Origin: Candidatus Borkfalkia avistercoris
GTDB lineage: Bacteria > Bacillota > Clostridia > Christensenellales > Borkfalkiaceae
Direction: 5' to 3'
NCBI GenBank assembly: GCA_019115995.1
Contig: DXCL01000026.1
Span: 1-64,000, forward strand
DNA length: 64,000 nt
Below are positions 2,921 to 54,387 of the stretch, piece by piece; the stretch's first letter is position 1; every line of letters begins with the position of its first letter. The translations under genes were made by a program, and so were the position numbers. Below the pieces are notes generated by a model. The model had not been told where the DNA came from. It saw only the letters and a list, made by a program, of their open reading frames with translations, and did not search any database.

Positions 2921-2965
2921 CAGCGTAAACCTTTCCGTTATTTTGCCCATATTGTAAGGCTCGGA

Positions 2966-3138
2966 CGAATAGTTCTCCACGTCGGTGACAGTCGCAGGGG
3001 TATTGACCCCGGCGCCCAGCGGCAGCGTCTGCGGAAGTTCGCGCTGCGCTTCGGCGGAGATGCCCTTTTTCGCCCCGCCGGAAACGACCGCTTTCCGTGC
3101 GGCAGGGGATACTATTGCTCGTCCGCTCCTCTATTTCG
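2966..3138 (-). promoter_or_regulatory. Lysine riboswitch (L box)
   Basis: minus strand reads CGAAATAGAGGAGCGG...AATAGTATCCC...GAAAAAGGGCATCTCCGCCGAAGCGCAG...CTGGGCGCCGGGGTCAATACCCCTGCGACTGTCACCGACGTGGAGAACTATTCG, matching the L-box core (GAGGNGCG, GCCGAAGC, CTGGG, GACTGTCA, GGAGNNCTAT); P1 CGAAATAG/CTATTCG; upstream of asd-dapA-dapB. Confidence 0.95.
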
Positions 3139-3145
3139 CACGGCT

Positions 3146-47031: not shown

Positions 47032-47070
47032 AGGGCTTCCGCGCCGGGCGCGGAAGCCCTGTTGTTTTTT
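47032..47070. terminator. convergent terminator between acpP and nspC
   Basis: AGGGCTTCCGCGCCGGGCGCGGAAGCCCT then GTTGTTTTTT. Confidence 0.8.
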
Positions 47071-48178
47071 ACAACCGATTTTTAAAATCTTCGTAGCCGA
47101 AGCGTTTGATCTCTTCGACGTTGCCGCCTTGCCGTTTCAAATAAATGCCGGGGAGGGGCATACCGTTGAAGGTATTGGTTTTGACCATCGTATACAGCGC
47201 CATGTCGTCGAACACGAGTTCGTCGCCCTCCTTTAAAGGCTCGTCGAAGGAATAGTCTCCGATCACGTCTCCCGCAAGGCAGGTCGGGCCGCCGAGCCGA
47301 TAGGTGTGCGCTTTCTCTCCCGCTATGCCGCTCCCGTAAACGGGCGGGCGGTAGGGCATTTCCAATACGTCCGGCATGTGGCAGGCGGCGGAAGCGTCCA
47401 AAATCGCGATGTTCATGCCGTTTTTCATCACTTCCAGAACGCGCGCGTGCAGCGTGCCCGCGTTGAGGACGACTGCTTCGCCCGGTTCGAGGTAGATCTG
47501 CGCTCCCGTTTCGCCTCGCAGTCTTTTTACGATGTCTACGAGGCACTCCCTGTCGTAATCCTCCCGCGTGATGTGGTGACCGCCGCCGAGGTTGAGCCAC
47601 TGCATGTTCTTCGCGTAGCGCCCGAATTTGTCCATGAACGCCTCGACGGTCTTTTCCAGATCGTCCGCATTCTGTTCGCACAGGGTGTGAAAGTGCAGCC
47701 CGTCGAGAAGGGGCAGTATCTCTTCGTCAAAGTTTGCGAGCGTCGTGCCGAGGCGGGAAAAAGGCGCGCACGGGTCGTAGATCTCGTGCCCCTCCTGCGT
47801 GGAGCATTCGGGGTTGACGCGCAGCCCCGCCGATACGCCCGCCTCCCTGCAAGGGGGGGCGAATTTTTTGACCTGCGCGGGCGTGTTGAACACGATGTGG
47901 TCGGCGATCGTTACGAGCTGTTCGATGTCTTCTTCGCGGTAGGCGGGGGCAAAAACGTGTACCTCTTTGCCGAATTCTTCCCGCCCGAGCTTCGCTTCGA
48001 ACAGTCCGCTCGCCTCCGTTCCCGCAAGGTAGCGCGCAATGAGGGGATACGTCTGCCAGACCGAATACGCCTTCTGCGCGAGCAGTATCTTGCAGCCCGC
48101 GCGTTCGGCTACGTCCTGTAATATTTCGAGGTTTTGTACGAGTTTTTTTTCGTCGATGAGAAAATAGGGCGTGCGCAT
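47069..48178 (-). CDS. nspC: carboxynorspermidine decarboxylase
   Basis: MRTPYFLIDEKKLVQNLEILQDV, LNLGGGHHITREDYD, PLKEGDELVFDDMALYTMVKTNTFNGM. Confidence 0.93.
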   Translation of the reverse strand: MRTPYFLIDEKKLVQNLEILQDVAERAGCKILLAQKAYSVWQTYPLIARYLAGTEASGLFEAKLGREEFGKEVHVFAPAYREEDIEQLVTIADHIVFNTPAQVKKFAPPCREAGVSAGLRVNPECSTQEGHEIYDPCAPFSRLGTTLANFDEEILPLLDGLHFHTLCEQNADDLEKTVEAFMDKFGRYAKNMQWLNLGGGHHITREDYDRECLVDIVKRLRGETGAQIYLEPGEAVVLNAGTLHARVLEVMKNGMNIAILDASAACHMPDVLEMPYRPPVYGSGIAGEKAHTYRLGGPTCLAGDVIGDYSFDEPLKEGDELVFDDMALYTMVKTNTFNGMPLPGIYLKRQGGNVEEIKRFGYEDFKNRL

Positions 48179-49380
48179 CAGTCTACCAATACGGGGTCAA
48201 AGTCCTCTTTCCAGGGGAGCCCCCATTTGTTCAGCGCGTCCATGAAGGGATCGGGGTCGAACTCCTCGATGTTGTAAACGCCGGGCTTTGTCCATGTGCC
48301 GTTCATCACGAGCATCGCGCCGATCATTGCGGGCACGCCCGTCGTGTAAGAGATCGCCTGCGAGCCGACCTCTTTATAGCATTCTTGATGGTCGCATACG
48401 TTGTAGAGGTAATAGGTCTTGTCTTTGCCGTCCTTTTTGCCGCGGAAGATGCACCCGATGTTCGTTTTTCCCACCGTGCGCGGGCCGAGAGACGCGGGAT
48501 CGGGCAGCACCGCTTTCAAAAATTGCAGGGGCACGATCTCTTTTCCCTCGAAAAGAATGGGCTTGATCGAGGTCATGCCCACGTTTTCCAAACATTTCAG
48601 GTGGGTAAGGTAGCTTTGCCCGAAGGTCATGAAAAAGCGGATGCGCTTGATGCCGGGCACGTTGAGCGCGAGCGATTCAATTTCCTCGTGGTGCAAAAGG
48701 TACATATCCTTTTTGCCAACGCCGTCAAAGTCGTATTCCCGCTTGATCTCCATGGGCTTTGTTTCCACCCAATGCCCGTCTTCCCAATACGAGCCGTTTG
48801 CCGAAACTTCGCGTATGTTGATCTCGGGGTTGAAGTTGGTGGCGAAGGGATAGCCGTGGTCGCCGCCGTTGCAGTCGAGAATATCGATGTAATTGATCTC
48901 GTCGAAGTGGTGTTTGAGCGCGTATGCCGTAAACACGCCCGTAACGCCGGGGTCGAATCCGCTGCCGAGCAGGGCGCAGATGCCAGCGTCTTTAAAGCGG
49001 TCGCGGTACGCCCACTGCCATTTGTATTCGAACTTTGCCGTATCCTCGGGTTCGTAGTTCGCCGTGTCTACATAGTGCACTTTTGTTTTCAGGCAGGCGT
49101 CCATGATGGTCAGATCCTGATAGGGAAGCGCGAGGTTCAAAACGACGTCGGGTTTGAATTTTTCGATGAGCGCGACGAGCTCGTCCACGCTGTTGGCGTC
49201 TACCTTTGCGGTATGTATTTTGGTCTTGGTCGTGCTTTGCAATTTTTCTTTGAGCGCGTCGCACTTTTCCTTGGTGCGGCTGGCGATCATGATTTCAGAA
49301 AACTGTTCGCTGTTCTGGCAGCATTTGTGAATGGCGACGGAGGCGACCCCGCCGCAGCCGATGATGAGCGCTTTTCCCAT
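48178..49380 (-). CDS. carboxynorspermidine synthase (saccharopine dehydrogenase family)
   Basis: MGKALIIGCGGVASVAIHKCCQNSE, LGSGFDPGVTGVFTAYALKHHFDEI; adjacent to nspC. Confidence 0.9.
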   Translation of the reverse strand: MGKALIIGCGGVASVAIHKCCQNSEQFSEIMIASRTKEKCDALKEKLQSTTKTKIHTAKVDANSVDELVALIEKFKPDVVLNLALPYQDLTIMDACLKTKVHYVDTANYEPEDTAKFEYKWQWAYRDRFKDAGICALLGSGFDPGVTGVFTAYALKHHFDEINYIDILDCNGGDHGYPFATNFNPEINIREVSANGSYWEDGHWVETKPMEIKREYDFDGVGKKDMYLLHHEEIESLALNVPGIKRIRFFMTFGQSYLTHLKCLENVGMTSIKPILFEGKEIVPLQFLKAVLPDPASLGPRTVGKTNIGCIFRGKKDGKDKTYYLYNVCDHQECYKEVGSQAISYTTGVPAMIGAMLVMNGTWTKPGVYNIEEFDPDPFMDALNKWGLPWKEDFDPVLVD

Positions 49381-49465
49381 AATGTGTACCTCTCCTCGTA
49401 TAAATTTCAAATATTTTTCAGTTCCGCGCATTGCGGGCCGTTTTGCATGTATTTGCCGAGTGCAA

Positions 49466-50317
49466 TCATTTTAACGCGATCAGCATTTCCCGCACGATCT
49501 TGCAGGCGACCGCCGTAGACGCCCCGCTCGCGTCGTAGTGGGGCGAAAGCTCGTTCACGTCCGCGGCGACGACGTTCAGCGTACGGCAGGCGTCCGTAAC
49601 CGCCTTTCTGAGCGCGTCGAAGGATACGCCGCCCGGCTCGGGCGTGCCCGTGCCGGGGAACACCGAAGGGTCGAGCACGTCTAAATCGACGGTCAGATAT
49701 ACAGGTACGCCCGCGAGCGTCTCAAAAGCGTTTTGCAGCCCTTCAAAGTCGAACAGGCGGGTAAAAACGTGTTCCCGTCCCCAAACGAATTCGCTCTTGT
49801 CGCCCGAACGTATGCCGAACTGATAAATTTTACCGTCGCCCACGAGCTCGTGGCATCTGCGCAGCACGCACGCGTGCGAGAGCTTCTGCCCGAGGTAATC
49901 GTCTCTGAGGTCTGCGTGCGCGTCGAAATGAAGAATATGCAGGTCGGGGAATTTTTTGACCGCCGCGCGCACCGCGCCGAGGGTTACTAGGTGTTCCCCG
50001 CCCAGCATGAAGGGGCGCTTTCCGTCTTTCAGGACAGCCGCCGCCCGCTTTTCGATCATTTTGAGCGCGGGTTCGGGCGCGCCGAAGGGGAGCTCGATGT
50101 CGCCGCTGTCGAAAATTCTGCGGTCGGTGAGCTCTTTTCCCTGGTAGGGCGAATACAGTTCCAGCCCGAAAGATTCTCTCCGCATCGCGGCGCTCGCGAA
50201 GCGCGTGCCCGGGCGGAAGGAAGTGGTGCAGTCGTACGGCGCGCCGAACAGTACGGTGTCCGCCGTTTTATAATCGGCGTCGCAGCCGATAAAAGTTTCA
50301 ACGTTCGTTTTCAACAT
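49466..50317 (-). CDS. speB: agmatinase (ureohydrolase family)
   Basis: LGGEHLVTLG, FDAHADLRDDYLG, VYLTVDLDVLDPSVFPGTGTPEPGG. Confidence 0.92.
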   Translation of the reverse strand: MLKTNVETFIGCDADYKTADTVLFGAPYDCTTSFRPGTRFASAAMRRESFGLELYSPYQGKELTDRRIFDSGDIELPFGAPEPALKMIEKRAAAVLKDGKRPFMLGGEHLVTLGAVRAAVKKFPDLHILHFDAHADLRDDYLGQKLSHACVLRRCHELVGDGKIYQFGIRSGDKSEFVWGREHVFTRLFDFEGLQNAFETLAGVPVYLTVDLDVLDPSVFPGTGTPEPGGVSFDALRKAVTDACRTLNVVAADVNELSPHYDASGASTAVACKIVREMLIALK

Positions 50318-51158
50318 CTTTGAGCATCTCCTCAACGTACGCGGGCAGATAGAATGCGCCGCGGTGCAGCGTGGTCGTGTAATAGCGGCAGGAAAGCCCG
50401 CGTTTGTTCCATCTCTTTTCGTCTAAATCGCGCAGCGGGTGATATTTTTTTGTGGAAAACCCGAACAGCCAATGCCCCGAAGGGTAGGTGGGGATATGCG
50501 CCTGATAAATGCGCGAAAAGGGGAAGGATTCGATGATCCGCTTGTGCGCCCGCTGCATGGCGATGGCGTCCTGCTCGTAGAAGGGGCTCTCGTGCTGATT
50601 GACCATAATGCCGTCCTCTTTGAGCGCTTTATAGCAGTTGCCGTAAAATTCGCGGGAAAAGAGCCCCTCGCCCGGGCCGAAAGGATCGGTCGAGTCGACG
50701 ATGATGAGGTCGTATTCAGCCTTTTTTCTTCGCACGAATTTGAGCCCGTCTTCTATAAAAACGTGTACCCGCGGATCGTCTAATTTGCAGGCGGTGAAAG
50801 GCAGGTATTTTTTACTCACTTCAATGACCTGCCCGTCTATTTCCGCAAGGTCGATCCGCTCGATCTCCGGATATTTTGCGAGTTCGCGCACCACGCCGCC
50901 GTCGCCCGCTCCCACCACGAGCACGTCTTTCACGTGCGGGTGCACGGCCATGGGGGTGTGTACGATCATTTCATGATAGATAAATTCGTCTTTTTCGGTC
51001 AGCATCAGATAACCGTCTAATACCAGCATTCTGCCGAAGGCGGGGGTATCGAACACGTCGATGCGCTGAAATTCGCTCTTTCCGCTGTATATCTGTTTGT
51101 CTACGCGGATACTCAGCTTTACGTCCTTCGTGTGCTGTTCAGAAAACCAAAAATCCAT
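50298..51158 (-). CDS. speE: spermidine synthase
   Basis: MLVLDGYLMLTEKDEFIYHEMIVHTPM, VLVVGAGDGGVVRELAKYPEIERIDLAEID, DSTDPFGPGEGLFS. Confidence 0.95.
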   Translation of the reverse strand: MDFWFSEQHTKDVKLSIRVDKQIYSGKSEFQRIDVFDTPAFGRMLVLDGYLMLTEKDEFIYHEMIVHTPMAVHPHVKDVLVVGAGDGGVVRELAKYPEIERIDLAEIDGQVIEVSKKYLPFTACKLDDPRVHVFIEDGLKFVRRKKAEYDLIIVDSTDPFGPGEGLFSREFYGNCYKALKEDGIMVNQHESPFYEQDAIAMQRAHKRIIESFPFSRIYQAHIPTYPSGHWLFGFSTKKYHPLRDLDEKRWNKRGLSCRYYTTTLHRGAFYLPAYVEEMLKDVENER

Positions 51159-51204
51159 ATGTCAAAATTTCCTTATCGATTCGCGCCGCGGGCTGCGGGG
51201 CGGT

Positions 51205-52662
51205 TCACGGTTTGATCTCCAATACGTTCAGGCGCTCGATCTTCGCGTCCTCCGTGCCGGTCATCTGGCACCCCTTTTCTTTGGCGTAGCGGATATAGTC
51301 GAGTATCTTTTTCGTGACCCGCTCTCCGGGTGCCAGAATGGGGATCCCCGGCGGATAACACATGACGAACTCCGAACAGATCATGCCCTCCGTCTCCTCG
51401 ATGGGGAGGGATCTCTTTTTTGCGTAAAAGGCAAATTGCGGCGTAACCGCAACGTCGGGCGCGATATATTCGTTTTCCATCAGGCCCGTTTTGTCTTTAG
51501 AGTACAGCCGTTTGATCTCGCTCATCGCGCTTACGAGGCGCTCTACGTCTCTTTTTCTGTCGCCGATGGAGAGATAGGCGAGTATGTTGCCGAGGTCGCC
51601 GAATTCGATCTGTATATCGTATTCGTCGCGCAGAATGTCGTACACCTCGATGCCCGCCAGTCCTATGTCGAGGGTGTGCACCGAAAGTTTGGTGCGGTCG
51701 AAGTCGAAAATGCTGTCTCCGTTGACGAGCTCTTTGGAATAGGCGTAATATCCGCCGATGTCGTTGATCTCCTCGCGGGCATAATCGGCAAGCTCTATAA
51801 CGTCGGCAAAGGCTTCTCTGCCGCGCAGCGCAAGGTTCCTTCTCGAAATATCCAGGCTGGAAAGGAGCAGGTAAGAGGCGCTCGTCGTCTGCGTCAGGTT
51901 GATGATCTGGCGCACGTGGTCGCCGTTGACCCGCTCACCCGCAAGCAGAAGTGAGCTTTGCGTGAGGCTTCCGCCCGATTTGTGCATGGAGACCGCCGCC
52001 ATATCCGCGCCCGCAGCCATGGCGGAAACGGGGAGACCTTCTCCGAAGTAGAAGTGCGTGCCGTGCGCCTCGTCTGCAATGACGAGCATGCCGTGCTCGT
52101 GCGCAAGTTTTACGATGGAGCGAAGATCCGAGCAGATGCCGTAATAGGTAGGGTTGTTTACGAGTATCGCCTTCGCTTCGGGGTGGCGGGCGATCGTGTC
52201 TTTCAGTTGGGAAAGGCTCATGCCGAGGGGAATGCCGAGCTGCGCGTCGCATTCGGGGTTGACGTATACGGGCACCGCGCCGCAAAGAACGAGCGCTCCC
52301 ACAACGCTCCTGTGCACGTTGCGCGGAAGAATGATCTTTTCGCCCGCTTTCACGACGGACATCACCATGCTCTGCACGGCGGAGGTCGTGCCGCCCACCA
52401 TCAGAAAAGCGTGCGCCGCGCCGAACGCGTCGGCGGCGAGTTTTTCCGCGTCGCGTATCACAGATACGGGGTGGCAGAGATTGTCGAGCGGCTTCATGGA
52501 GTTCACGTCCATGCCGACGCACTTTTCGCCGAGCAGTTTTGCGAGCTCGGGGTTACCCCGCCCGCGTTTATGCCCCGGCACGTCGAAGGGCACCACCCGC
52601 ATTTTTCCGAATTTTTCCAGCGCCTCGTAGATGGGGGCGCGCTCCTGTGCTTTTCTGTCCAT
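51205..52662 (-). CDS. speA: Orn/Lys/Arg decarboxylase, fold type I (likely arginine decarboxylase)
   Basis: VPGHKRGRGNPELAKLLG, VADEAHGTHFYFGEGLP, SMHKSGGSLTQSSLLL PLP-Lys site; next to speB and speE. Confidence 0.88.
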   Translation of the reverse strand: MDRKAQERAPIYEALEKFGKMRVVPFDVPGHKRGRGNPELAKLLGEKCVGMDVNSMKPLDNLCHPVSVIRDAEKLAADAFGAAHAFLMVGGTTSAVQSMVMSVVKAGEKIILPRNVHRSVVGALVLCGAVPVYVNPECDAQLGIPLGMSLSQLKDTIARHPEAKAILVNNPTYYGICSDLRSIVKLAHEHGMLVIADEAHGTHFYFGEGLPVSAMAAGADMAAVSMHKSGGSLTQSSLLLAGERVNGDHVRQIINLTQTTSASYLLLSSLDISRRNLALRGREAFADVIELADYAREEINDIGGYYAYSKELVNGDSIFDFDRTKLSVHTLDIGLAGIEVYDILRDEYDIQIEFGDLGNILAYLSIGDRKRDVERLVSAMSEIKRLYSKDKTGLMENEYIAPDVAVTPQFAFYAKKRSLPIEETEGMICSEFVMCYPPGIPILAPGERVTKKILDYIRYAKEKGCQMTGTEDAKIERLNVLEIKP

Positions 52663-52666
52663 GCGT

Positions 52667-53425
52667 TCAGTAAATGTTTCTCCCGTTAAAAATCTCTATC
52701 ATCTCTTTCCGTAAGCTGTCCAAAATTTCCTGCTTTTTCGCGGGGGGCAGGTCGTTTTCGTCGAGGTTGAACAGGTAATTTTTGAGGTCGATCTCCCGAA
52801 GCAGCATCTTCGTGTGGAAGATGTTTGCCGAATATACGTTCACGTCTACGGCGTCGTATTTTTTCAGGGTCTTGTCCGAAATAAAATTCTGAATGGAGTT
52901 GATGCGCAGGTCGTTGAACACCTTGCGCCCGTCTATGCTTCGGGTAAAGCCGCGCACGCGGTAGTCCATCGTGATGATGTCGGAATCGAAGGAGCCGATG
53001 AGGTAATCGAGCGTGGAAAGGGGGGTGATGGTGCCGCAGGTCGCAACGTCTATATCCACGCGGAAAGTGGCGAGCGACGTTTCGGGGTGATACTCGGGGT
53101 AAGTGTGCACGGTTACGTGGCTCTTGTCGAGGTGCGCCACCTGCGTTTTGCCCTGCGCCGGGATCATGGAAAGGTCGGATATGAGCAGGGTAACGGAAGC
53201 ACCCTGCGGATCATAATCCTGCCCCGAGATGTTCAGCACGCGCGCGCCGATCATAGACGTAAGGTTTGTAAGGATTTCCGTAAGCCTTTTGGAGTTGTAT
53301 TGTTCGTCGATATATGCGATATATTCTCTGCGTTCCTTGGGCGATTTTGCGTAGCATATATCGTAAATATTGAAGCTTAAAGATTTTGTTAAATTGTTGA
53401 ATCCGTACAGTTTGAGCTTTGCCAT
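52667..53425 (-). CDS. speD: S-adenosylmethionine decarboxylase proenzyme (E. coli-type)
   Basis: [61 protein letters not shown]. Confidence 0.94.
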
Positions 53426-53449
53426 GACCTTTCTCCCAAAATTCCGAGC

Positions 53450-53484
53450 AAAAATAAAAGCGTGCAGGCTTGCCGCCTGCACGC
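53450..53484 (-). terminator. strong intrinsic terminator in the speD leader
   Basis: minus strand GCGTGCAGGC-ggcaa-GCCTGCACGC followed by TTTTATTTTT; 10-bp perfect stem. Confidence 0.9.
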
Positions 53485-53773
53485 TGTCAAAAAGTCAGAA
53501 TCCAACAGAAAAACAGCATTATTCCGTAAGGACTGTACTATCGCATGGTAAATACTTCTGCGCTTATTGACCGTTTCACAAGTTTGTGCGGGCTGCACGC
53601 GGTTATAAAGTAACCAACTTATAAAATTCGAGCTTTTAACTCGATCAATAAGGCGGCTGCGCCGCCGATCGGCATTCGACCCGGCTGTCCGTATGGCCTT
53701 GACCCGAAAAGGGGTGGTCGTGTATTTGCATGCGACGTTATTCCCGCCCCGCGGCGGAAAGTCCATTGCTATC
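53450..53773 (-). ncRNA. uncharacterised structured leader RNA of the polyamine operon
   Basis: promoter at 53780-53808; long-range stem GCAUG/AAAUAC (53722-53733) with GUAUUU/CAUGC (53543-53555); hairpins UUCCGCC/GGCGGGAA, CGATC-GGCGGC-gca-GCCGCC-..-GATCG, CGAG/CTCG, GTGC/GCAC; ends in intrinsic terminator. Confidence 0.6.
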
Positions 53774-53779
53774 GTCTTG

Positions 53780-53808
53780 ATTATACGAAATTTTGCGGGC
53801 AAAGTCAA
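53780..53808 (-). promoter_or_regulatory. promoter of speD leader/operon
   Basis: minus strand TTGACT-N17-TATAAT. Confidence 0.88.
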
Positions 53809-53991: not shown

Positions 53992-54066
53992 GGCCTCATG
54001 GTCAAGCGGTTAAGACGTCGCCCTCTCACGGCGAAAACCGGGGTTCGAGTCCCCGTGGGGCTACCA
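53992..54066 (+). tRNA. tRNA-Glu(CTC)
   Basis: GGCCTCATGGTCAAGCGGTTAAGACGTCGCCCTCTCACGGCGAAAACCGGGGTTCGAGTCCCCGTGGGGCTACCA; loop CTCTCAC gives anticodon CTC; encoded CCA. Confidence 0.95.
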
Positions 54067-54191: not shown

Positions 54192-54387
54192 CAAAAGGGG
54201 ATCCGCCTGTGCCGCAGAACGAAAAAGTGTTAACCCGCTTCTCGCAGGTGGGTGCGCCGCTTGCCGCCTCAGCCTTTCCGTTCAAAAACAGACCTCGCCT
54301 ATCGGCATAGACCATTTCGATAGCGCTCCCGTAATTACATTGTGGATTAAGATAATTCGAACTCCGTACACCGCAGATCGTGTTTAC
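54192..54387 (-). ncRNA. ssrS: 6S RNA candidate
   Basis: promoter TTGAAT-N17-TATACT at 54394-54422; ~195-nt irregular single hairpin: closing stem GAUCUGC/GCGGAUC, then CGGAGUUCGAA/UUCGUUCUGCG, then UUAAUCC/GGGUUAA around an open bulge; no convincing ORF. Confidence 0.62.

Follow-up and report, generated by a model that had tools for sequence, protein, structure and literature searches.

The window analysed here is a 64,000-nucleotide stretch of the genome of Candidatus Borkfalkia avistercoris (contig DXCL01000026.1, positions 1 to 64,000). Its minus strand carries a polyamine operon (47069-53425) preceded by a structured leader (Table 1). The operon encodes both routes to spermidine, SpeD/SpeE and CASDH/NspC, an arrangement suggestive of redundancy or of a further polyamine as its target. 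A short way upstream of the leader lies an ordinary 6S RNA (RF00013, 48.1 bits, cut-off 46.4; 54196-54382, minus strand), and a tRNA (53992-54063, plus strand) is located between the two. Elsewhere in the window, an ordinary Lysine riboswitch (RF00168, 59.1 bits; 2962-3141, minus strand) precedes ORFs that look like asd, dapA, and dapB, which indicates that the organism uses riboswitches for amino-acid supply.

Table 1. Features of the polyamine operon and its leader, in order of transcription.
Feature	Position	Strand	Basis
Promoter TTGACT-N17-TATAAT	53780..53808	-	11/12 consensus matches; similar promoters at same place in relatives
P1 5' strand GTCGCATGCAAATAC, outer closing stem	53722..53736	-	MFE fold, own-strand pairing test
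Conserved core domain P2-P9	53563..53720	-	Covariance model R1, 167.8 bits, E 6.5e-45; covariation
RF02440 SpF59_sRNA (ldcC RNA) match	53669..53720	-	Rfam scan
P2 (53720-53716 with 53681-53677), encloses P2a and P3	53677..53720	-	Covariation
P2a (53715-53712 with 53705-53702)	inside P2	-	Covariation
P3 (53698-53696 with 53685-53683)	inside P2	-	Covariation
P4 hairpin GGCGGC-GCA-GCCGCC	53652..53666	-	Covariation
P5 long helix, TTATTGA (53651-53645) with TCAATAA (53570-53564), encloses P6-P9	53564..53651	-	Covariation
P6 hairpin TCGAG..CTCGA	53628..53644	-	Covariation
P7, ATAAGTT (53622-53616) with AACTTGT (53584-53578), encloses P8 and P9	53578..53622	-	Covariation
P8	53615-53601	-	Inside P7
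P9	53599-53586	-	Inside P7
P1 3' strand GTATTTACCATGCGA	53541..53555	-	MFE fold, own-strand pairing test
Linker, P1 to terminator	53486..53540	-	Nascent-RNA ensemble folding
Intrinsic terminator hairpin and U-tract	53449..53485	-	Sequence and folding scan
speD ribosome binding region GGGAGAAAGGTC	53426..53437	-	Sequence
speD, S-adenosylmethionine decarboxylase (ATG at 53425)	52667..53425	-	TIGR03331, 396.8 bits
Orn/Lys/Arg decarboxylase (speA/ldc type)	51205..52662	-	PF01276
speE, spermidine synthase	50298..51158	-	NF002010
speB, agmatinase	49466..50335	-	TIGR01230
Carboxy(nor)spermidine synthase/dehydrogenase (CASDH, Lys9-like)	48178..49431	-	NF043000 (below its cut-off), PF03435, PF16653
nspC, carboxynorspermidine decarboxylase	47069..48178	-	TIGR01047

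A preliminary description of this DNA had listed a promoter, a structured domain, a terminator, and the speD start as elements of the leader. All of these are present, and the element as a whole is larger than was noted. The near-consensus promoter sits where it had been placed, and 50 of 135 homologues have a TTGAC/TATAAT-like promoter ahead of the core, compared with 0.6 expected from shuffles. The entire leader folds with -115.7 kcal/mol (z = -3.87), and none of 100 shuffled sequences folded equally well. In the MFE fold, P1 is formed by pairing of GUCGCAUGCAAAUAC (53736-53722) with GUAUUUACCAUGCGA (53555-53541) over 8 + 6 bp with an internal loop; the closing stem had thus been recognized correctly, its length of 11 bp being slightly short. 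Within the P2/P2a/P3 region (53677..53720), GGCCATACGGACAGCCGGGTC is near-invariant. The terminator, previously given as a 10-bp GC-rich stem with a U-rich tail, is a hairpin of 11 bp here (AGCGUGCAGGCGGCAAGCCUGCACGCU, 53485-53459) followed by the U-tract, and the end of the hairpin is indeed 34 nt from the speD ATG.

Part of the leader turned out to belong to a catalogued family. The Rfam model RF02440, "Streptococcus sRNA SpF59 (ldcC RNA)," matches with 68.9 bits (gathering cut-off 37.2; window-wide E = 2.6e-10), a match that the preliminary description had missed. The leader is therefore a known Rfam sequence family and not an unknown sequence, and the earlier label "uncharacterised" is only partly apt, since 54 nt of the element are covered by this model, which is typed sRNA. 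The literature searched revealed neither a function for RF02440 nor where its alias "ldcC RNA" comes from. The view that the leader carries no known riboswitch core was borne out, since besides RF02440 no Rfam family (T-box, lysine, cobalamin, M-box, ykkC, and others) reached its cut-off, and at E values up to 10 the leader region gave only RF02440 and sub-threshold noise. A match to the trpB motif was rejected because it scored 26.9 bits against a cut-off of 59 and the matched segment is the terminator hairpin. In 20 homologous loci the only other Rfam family to reach its cut-off was a tRNA, which lies beyond the leader.

Homologues are widespread. Of 61 genomes from the genus and order to which the window belongs, 22 carry RF02440, counting the window's own genome, and an exact-pattern scan of named genomes returned at least 118 stretches. 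Among the matches listed are Paenibacillus, Bacillus, Neobacillus, Kurthia, Blautia, Faecalibacterium, Flavonifractor, Acidaminococcus, Phascolarctobacterium, and many Clostridia MAGs, as well as single MAGs labelled Synergistaceae and Spirochaetes; viral contigs gave no match to the pattern. The stretch conserved in these homologues, approximately 230 nt, extends far past the 54-nt Rfam fragment. To avoid choosing loci by eye, we built a covariance model, R1, and ran it on evenly drawn genomes. Matches were obtained in 20 of 399 genomes drawn from the phylum, 36 of 400 drawn from the class of genome G367, and 54 of 393 drawn from the window's class, that is, in 5-14% of the sampled genomes, with slight overlap between the draws. 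Each searched genome held one strong copy, and a multi-operon regulon within one genome was thus not seen. Two members (L256 and L258) are shortened and match model positions 73-160 only; they lack P2-P4, including the Rfam core, and retain P5-P7 and their location before a speA operon. Because such members exist, the boundary of the aptamer is uncertain.

The genes that follow these leaders are uniform in function. Where enough downstream sequence was available to judge the context, the first gene in the pattern-matched loci listed was speD, speA/ldc, or the CASDH gene of a CASDH-nspC pair, and 12 listed loci with long downstream sequence and none of these genes had potA, mostly with potBC visible too. 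PotABCD is a spermidine/putrescine importer. R1 matches preceded speD, speA/ldc, CASDH-nspC, or potABCD in 20 of 20 loci of the first draw and in 83 of 84 further loci. In the sole exception, L263, an IS200-type transposase gene directly follows the terminator and parts the leader from any polyamine gene; at L260, the weakest R1 match, speD does not come until about 2.3 kb downstream. L263 aside, the inspected leaders are confined to polyamine supply genes.

The preliminary description had proposed covariation in homologues as a check, and this check supports the eight core helices (43 pairs in the structure tested). In a structure-free analysis of 113 non-redundant homologues (MAFFT alignment, APC-corrected G-test), pairs of P2, P2a, and P4 ranked at the top, with a top score of 100.7 compared with a shuffled maximum of about 21, and pairs of P6 scored 22-27. 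In a MAFFT alignment of 65 sequences (A1), 95.1% of cells were paired, compared with 26-46% for slid versions of the structure, and none of 500 shuffles did as well; double changes occurred in 17 of the 43 pairs. In 100 model-aligned sequences that include divergent members (A2), double changes occurred in 36 of 43 pairs, with at least two such pairs per helix, a count favoured by the fitting of this alignment to the model structure. The outer stem P1 was assessed without an alignment: strands paired with a mean of -24.3 kcal/mol within their own locus, -17.5 kcal/mol when swapped between loci (a comparison that still includes sequence relatedness), and -13.6 kcal/mol when shuffled. P1 thus co-evolves across loci.

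A folding-based scan showed that 120 of 128 loci have, ahead of the gene, a hairpin of -8 kcal/mol or lower followed by a U-tract. Strict unbulged hairpins were found in 75 of 118 loci compared with 35 of 590 shuffled regions, using a start point that is ill-suited to leaders of the window's genus. Three loci (L060, L118, and L134) lack a terminator and have the sequence CCATC-TTGGAAA-GGATGG close to their start codon, a sign that in these members the RBS may be sequestered and control may be translational rather than transcriptional.

Strands that might compete with the terminator differ between leader types. The 5' arm of the terminator is complementary to the 3' strand of P7 in 18 of 40 speA-type leaders and to the 3' strand of P1 in 14 of 17 CASDH-type leaders, whereas shuffling leads one to expect approximately 1-3 cases in all 104 leaders. 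A common partner was not found for the speD- and potA-type leaders, nor did ensemble folding of the nascent RNA reveal a partner shared among leaders. Since the partners are class-specific and none is common, the switching helix appears to be lineage-specific. In the window, ensemble folding gave the linker as the best partner of the terminator 5' arm, and ATGCTGT in this linker (53486..53540) is a candidate local antiterminator. The antiterminator proposed previously drew on a repeat that does exist, with a second copy of GCGTGCAG at 53600-53593 and CTGCACGC at 53467-53460; of the 13 same-genus loci that have a terminator, however, only 2 allow this P9 segment to pair with the terminator 3' arm, and the pairing is not conserved.

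The leader thus combines a structured, aptamer-like 5' domain that shows covariation, an expression platform downstream in the form of the terminators, and genes tied to one metabolite, through polyamine biosynthesis and import. These being the computational criteria for a riboswitch that we applied, the leader is a candidate polyamine riboswitch. Its occurrence across the Firmicutes only before genes for polyamine synthesis or import indicates that it is probably a polyamine-sensing riboswitch that has so far gone unrecognised. The original idea, that a structured, terminator-bearing leader controls the polyamine genes and makes a good riboswitch candidate, is strengthened by the homologues, the covariation, and the gene context. 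We put the probability at roughly 0.7 that the leader acts in cis to switch the operon OFF in response to a polyamine, most likely as a riboswitch with P1-P9 as its putative aptamer and spermidine as its presumed ligand. When polyamine is plentiful, it would bind and stabilise the domain (P1/P5/P7), the downstream hairpin would form, and RNA polymerase would stop before speD. Under polyamine scarcity, the terminator 5' arm would instead be paired with strands from the domain or the linker, and the operon would be transcribed; depending on the subclass, the pairing strand would be the 3' strand of P7 (many speA-type leaders) or of P1 (CASDH-type leaders). Polyamine riboswitches have long been expected, and to our knowledge those validated so far are rare SAM-I variants only (13 examples).

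Spermidine is favoured as the ligand because it is the product common to all types of target, which comprise the SAM-dependent route (SpeD, SpeE), CASDH-NspC alone (in Paenibacillus and Bacillus relatives), and import by PotABCD alone. It seems unlikely to us that the leader is a riboswitch for a different compound of the pathway, be it putrescine, carboxyspermidine, agmatine, arginine, SAM, or decarboxylated SAM; most of these compounds are made or used by the operon in the window, but where the targets consist of CASDH-nspC alone or potABCD alone, the product they share is spermidine (along with putrescine in the case of import), not SAM, arginine, or agmatine. The many members preceding such targets disfavour arginine, agmatine, and SAM, which had been among the ligands suggested earlier.

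The same anatomy would be expected of an attenuator that responds to polyamines through an RNA-binding protein of the PyrR/TRAP kind instead of binding a small molecule directly, and gene context and terminators fit such an attenuator equally well. The domain is large, however, and its 42 positions conserved at 97% or more are spread over loops, junctions, and stems in an aptamer-like manner; moreover, no protein gene is so far known to co-occur with it. We therefore regard protein-mediated attenuation as improbable.

RF02440 and the papers on pneumococcal sRNAs assume that the terminated transcript, of 54-330 nt, is itself the functional product and acts in trans. The pneumococcal RNA, known as F59, SN20, srn235, or Spd_sr49, is a discrete RNA of 318-327 nt located between SP0915 and SP0916 and directed toward SP0916 (PMC3395615, PMC2887815, PMC12323649); an FMN switch was guessed for it in 2010 (PMC2887815). 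The accumulation of a discrete RNA and the Rfam type agree with a trans-acting sRNA, but the size is also as expected for a terminated leader. A trans-acting RNA would have no need to remain immediately ahead of various polyamine operons in distantly related lineages, nor does that role account for a terminator near the start codon in most loci. We thus consider action in trans as the main function to be very improbable, whereas a by-product role of the leader RNA in trans, alongside control in cis, is possible. Rfam accordingly holds a fragment under a label, sRNA, that the evidence presented here does not favour, given that conservation spans approximately 230 nt and that the element stays in cis to polyamine operons.

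Published expression data bear on control in cis by an OFF switch. SP_0916 is the arginine decarboxylase gene speA, and a ΔpotABCD pneumococcus has lower spermidine and putrescine (PMC7531197). In such a mutant, qRT-PCR showed SP_0916 speA up 16.9-fold and SP_0918 speE up 14.4-fold, a rise that is absent from the RNA-seq data of the same article (PMC8540371). The authors do not appear to link the change in expression to the leader RNA (PMC8540371, PMC7531197). The direction of the qRT-PCR change fits an OFF switch that represses when polyamines are available.

Ribosome-mediated attenuation, in which translation of a leader peptide would sense polyamines or arginine/ornithine, has a precedent in the ornithine/polyamine control exerted by the speFL leader peptide in enterobacteria, but we rejected it as very improbable, because although most leaders contain, by chance, ATG-initiated ORFs 12 or more codons long, these share no position (24 starts in the most populated 10-nt bin across 137 leaders), and because the core contains stop codons and indels and its conservation tracks base pairs.

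If the leader is indeed a polyamine riboswitch, it would explain how spermidine synthesis is balanced with import in Clostridia of the gut, in Paenibacillus and Bacillus relatives, and in pneumococcus, the last being included on the basis of published work and RF02440. It would also provide a natural RNA for studying selective recognition of a flexible polycation. The element described here also corrects an Rfam entry that spans one quarter of it and is labelled as a small RNA gene.

The odc1, potE, and potC motifs resemble the leader in being candidate structured RNAs near polyamine genes, and Rfam reported none of them in the window's leader or in the 20 homologues. The odc1 motif, from alpha-proteobacteria, consists of one hairpin and a pseudoknot, and potE occurs in Veillonella only (PMC8632094). 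Likeness to RF02440 and pneumococcal F59 extends from the sequence match to the shared site ahead of a polyamine operon, which in pneumococcus is that of SP_0916; the family is, however, 54 nt long and typed sRNA, whereas the element in the window, at approximately 230 nt and with a terminator in addition, has the look of a cis-regulatory RNA. We found no paper treating this RNA as a riboswitch in the open-access journal literature searched. A close functional parallel is the spermidine riboswitch that is a variant of SAM-I, of which 13 examples have been reported, and which resembles the leader in its targets (ldcC, speB, speD, and speE), in being an OFF switch that acts by transcription termination, and in occurring in Firmicutes (PMC10853860). 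The two differ in core sequence and helix layout, and no SAM-family match was obtained in the leader at E values up to 10 or, at the gathering cut-off, in the 20 homologues; the two RNAs are unrelated. While the SAM-I variant is known from those 13 examples, the leader RNA occurs in 5-14% of the sampled genomes. We consider it more likely than not that the leader represents a second class of candidate riboswitch for a polyamine (spermidine), one that has no structural relation to the first and is much more widespread. Its putative aptamer would span approximately 160-230 nt, and the riboswitch, represented in Rfam by a 54-nt sRNA fragment, would govern both synthesis and uptake of polyamines in Firmicutes, including streptococci.
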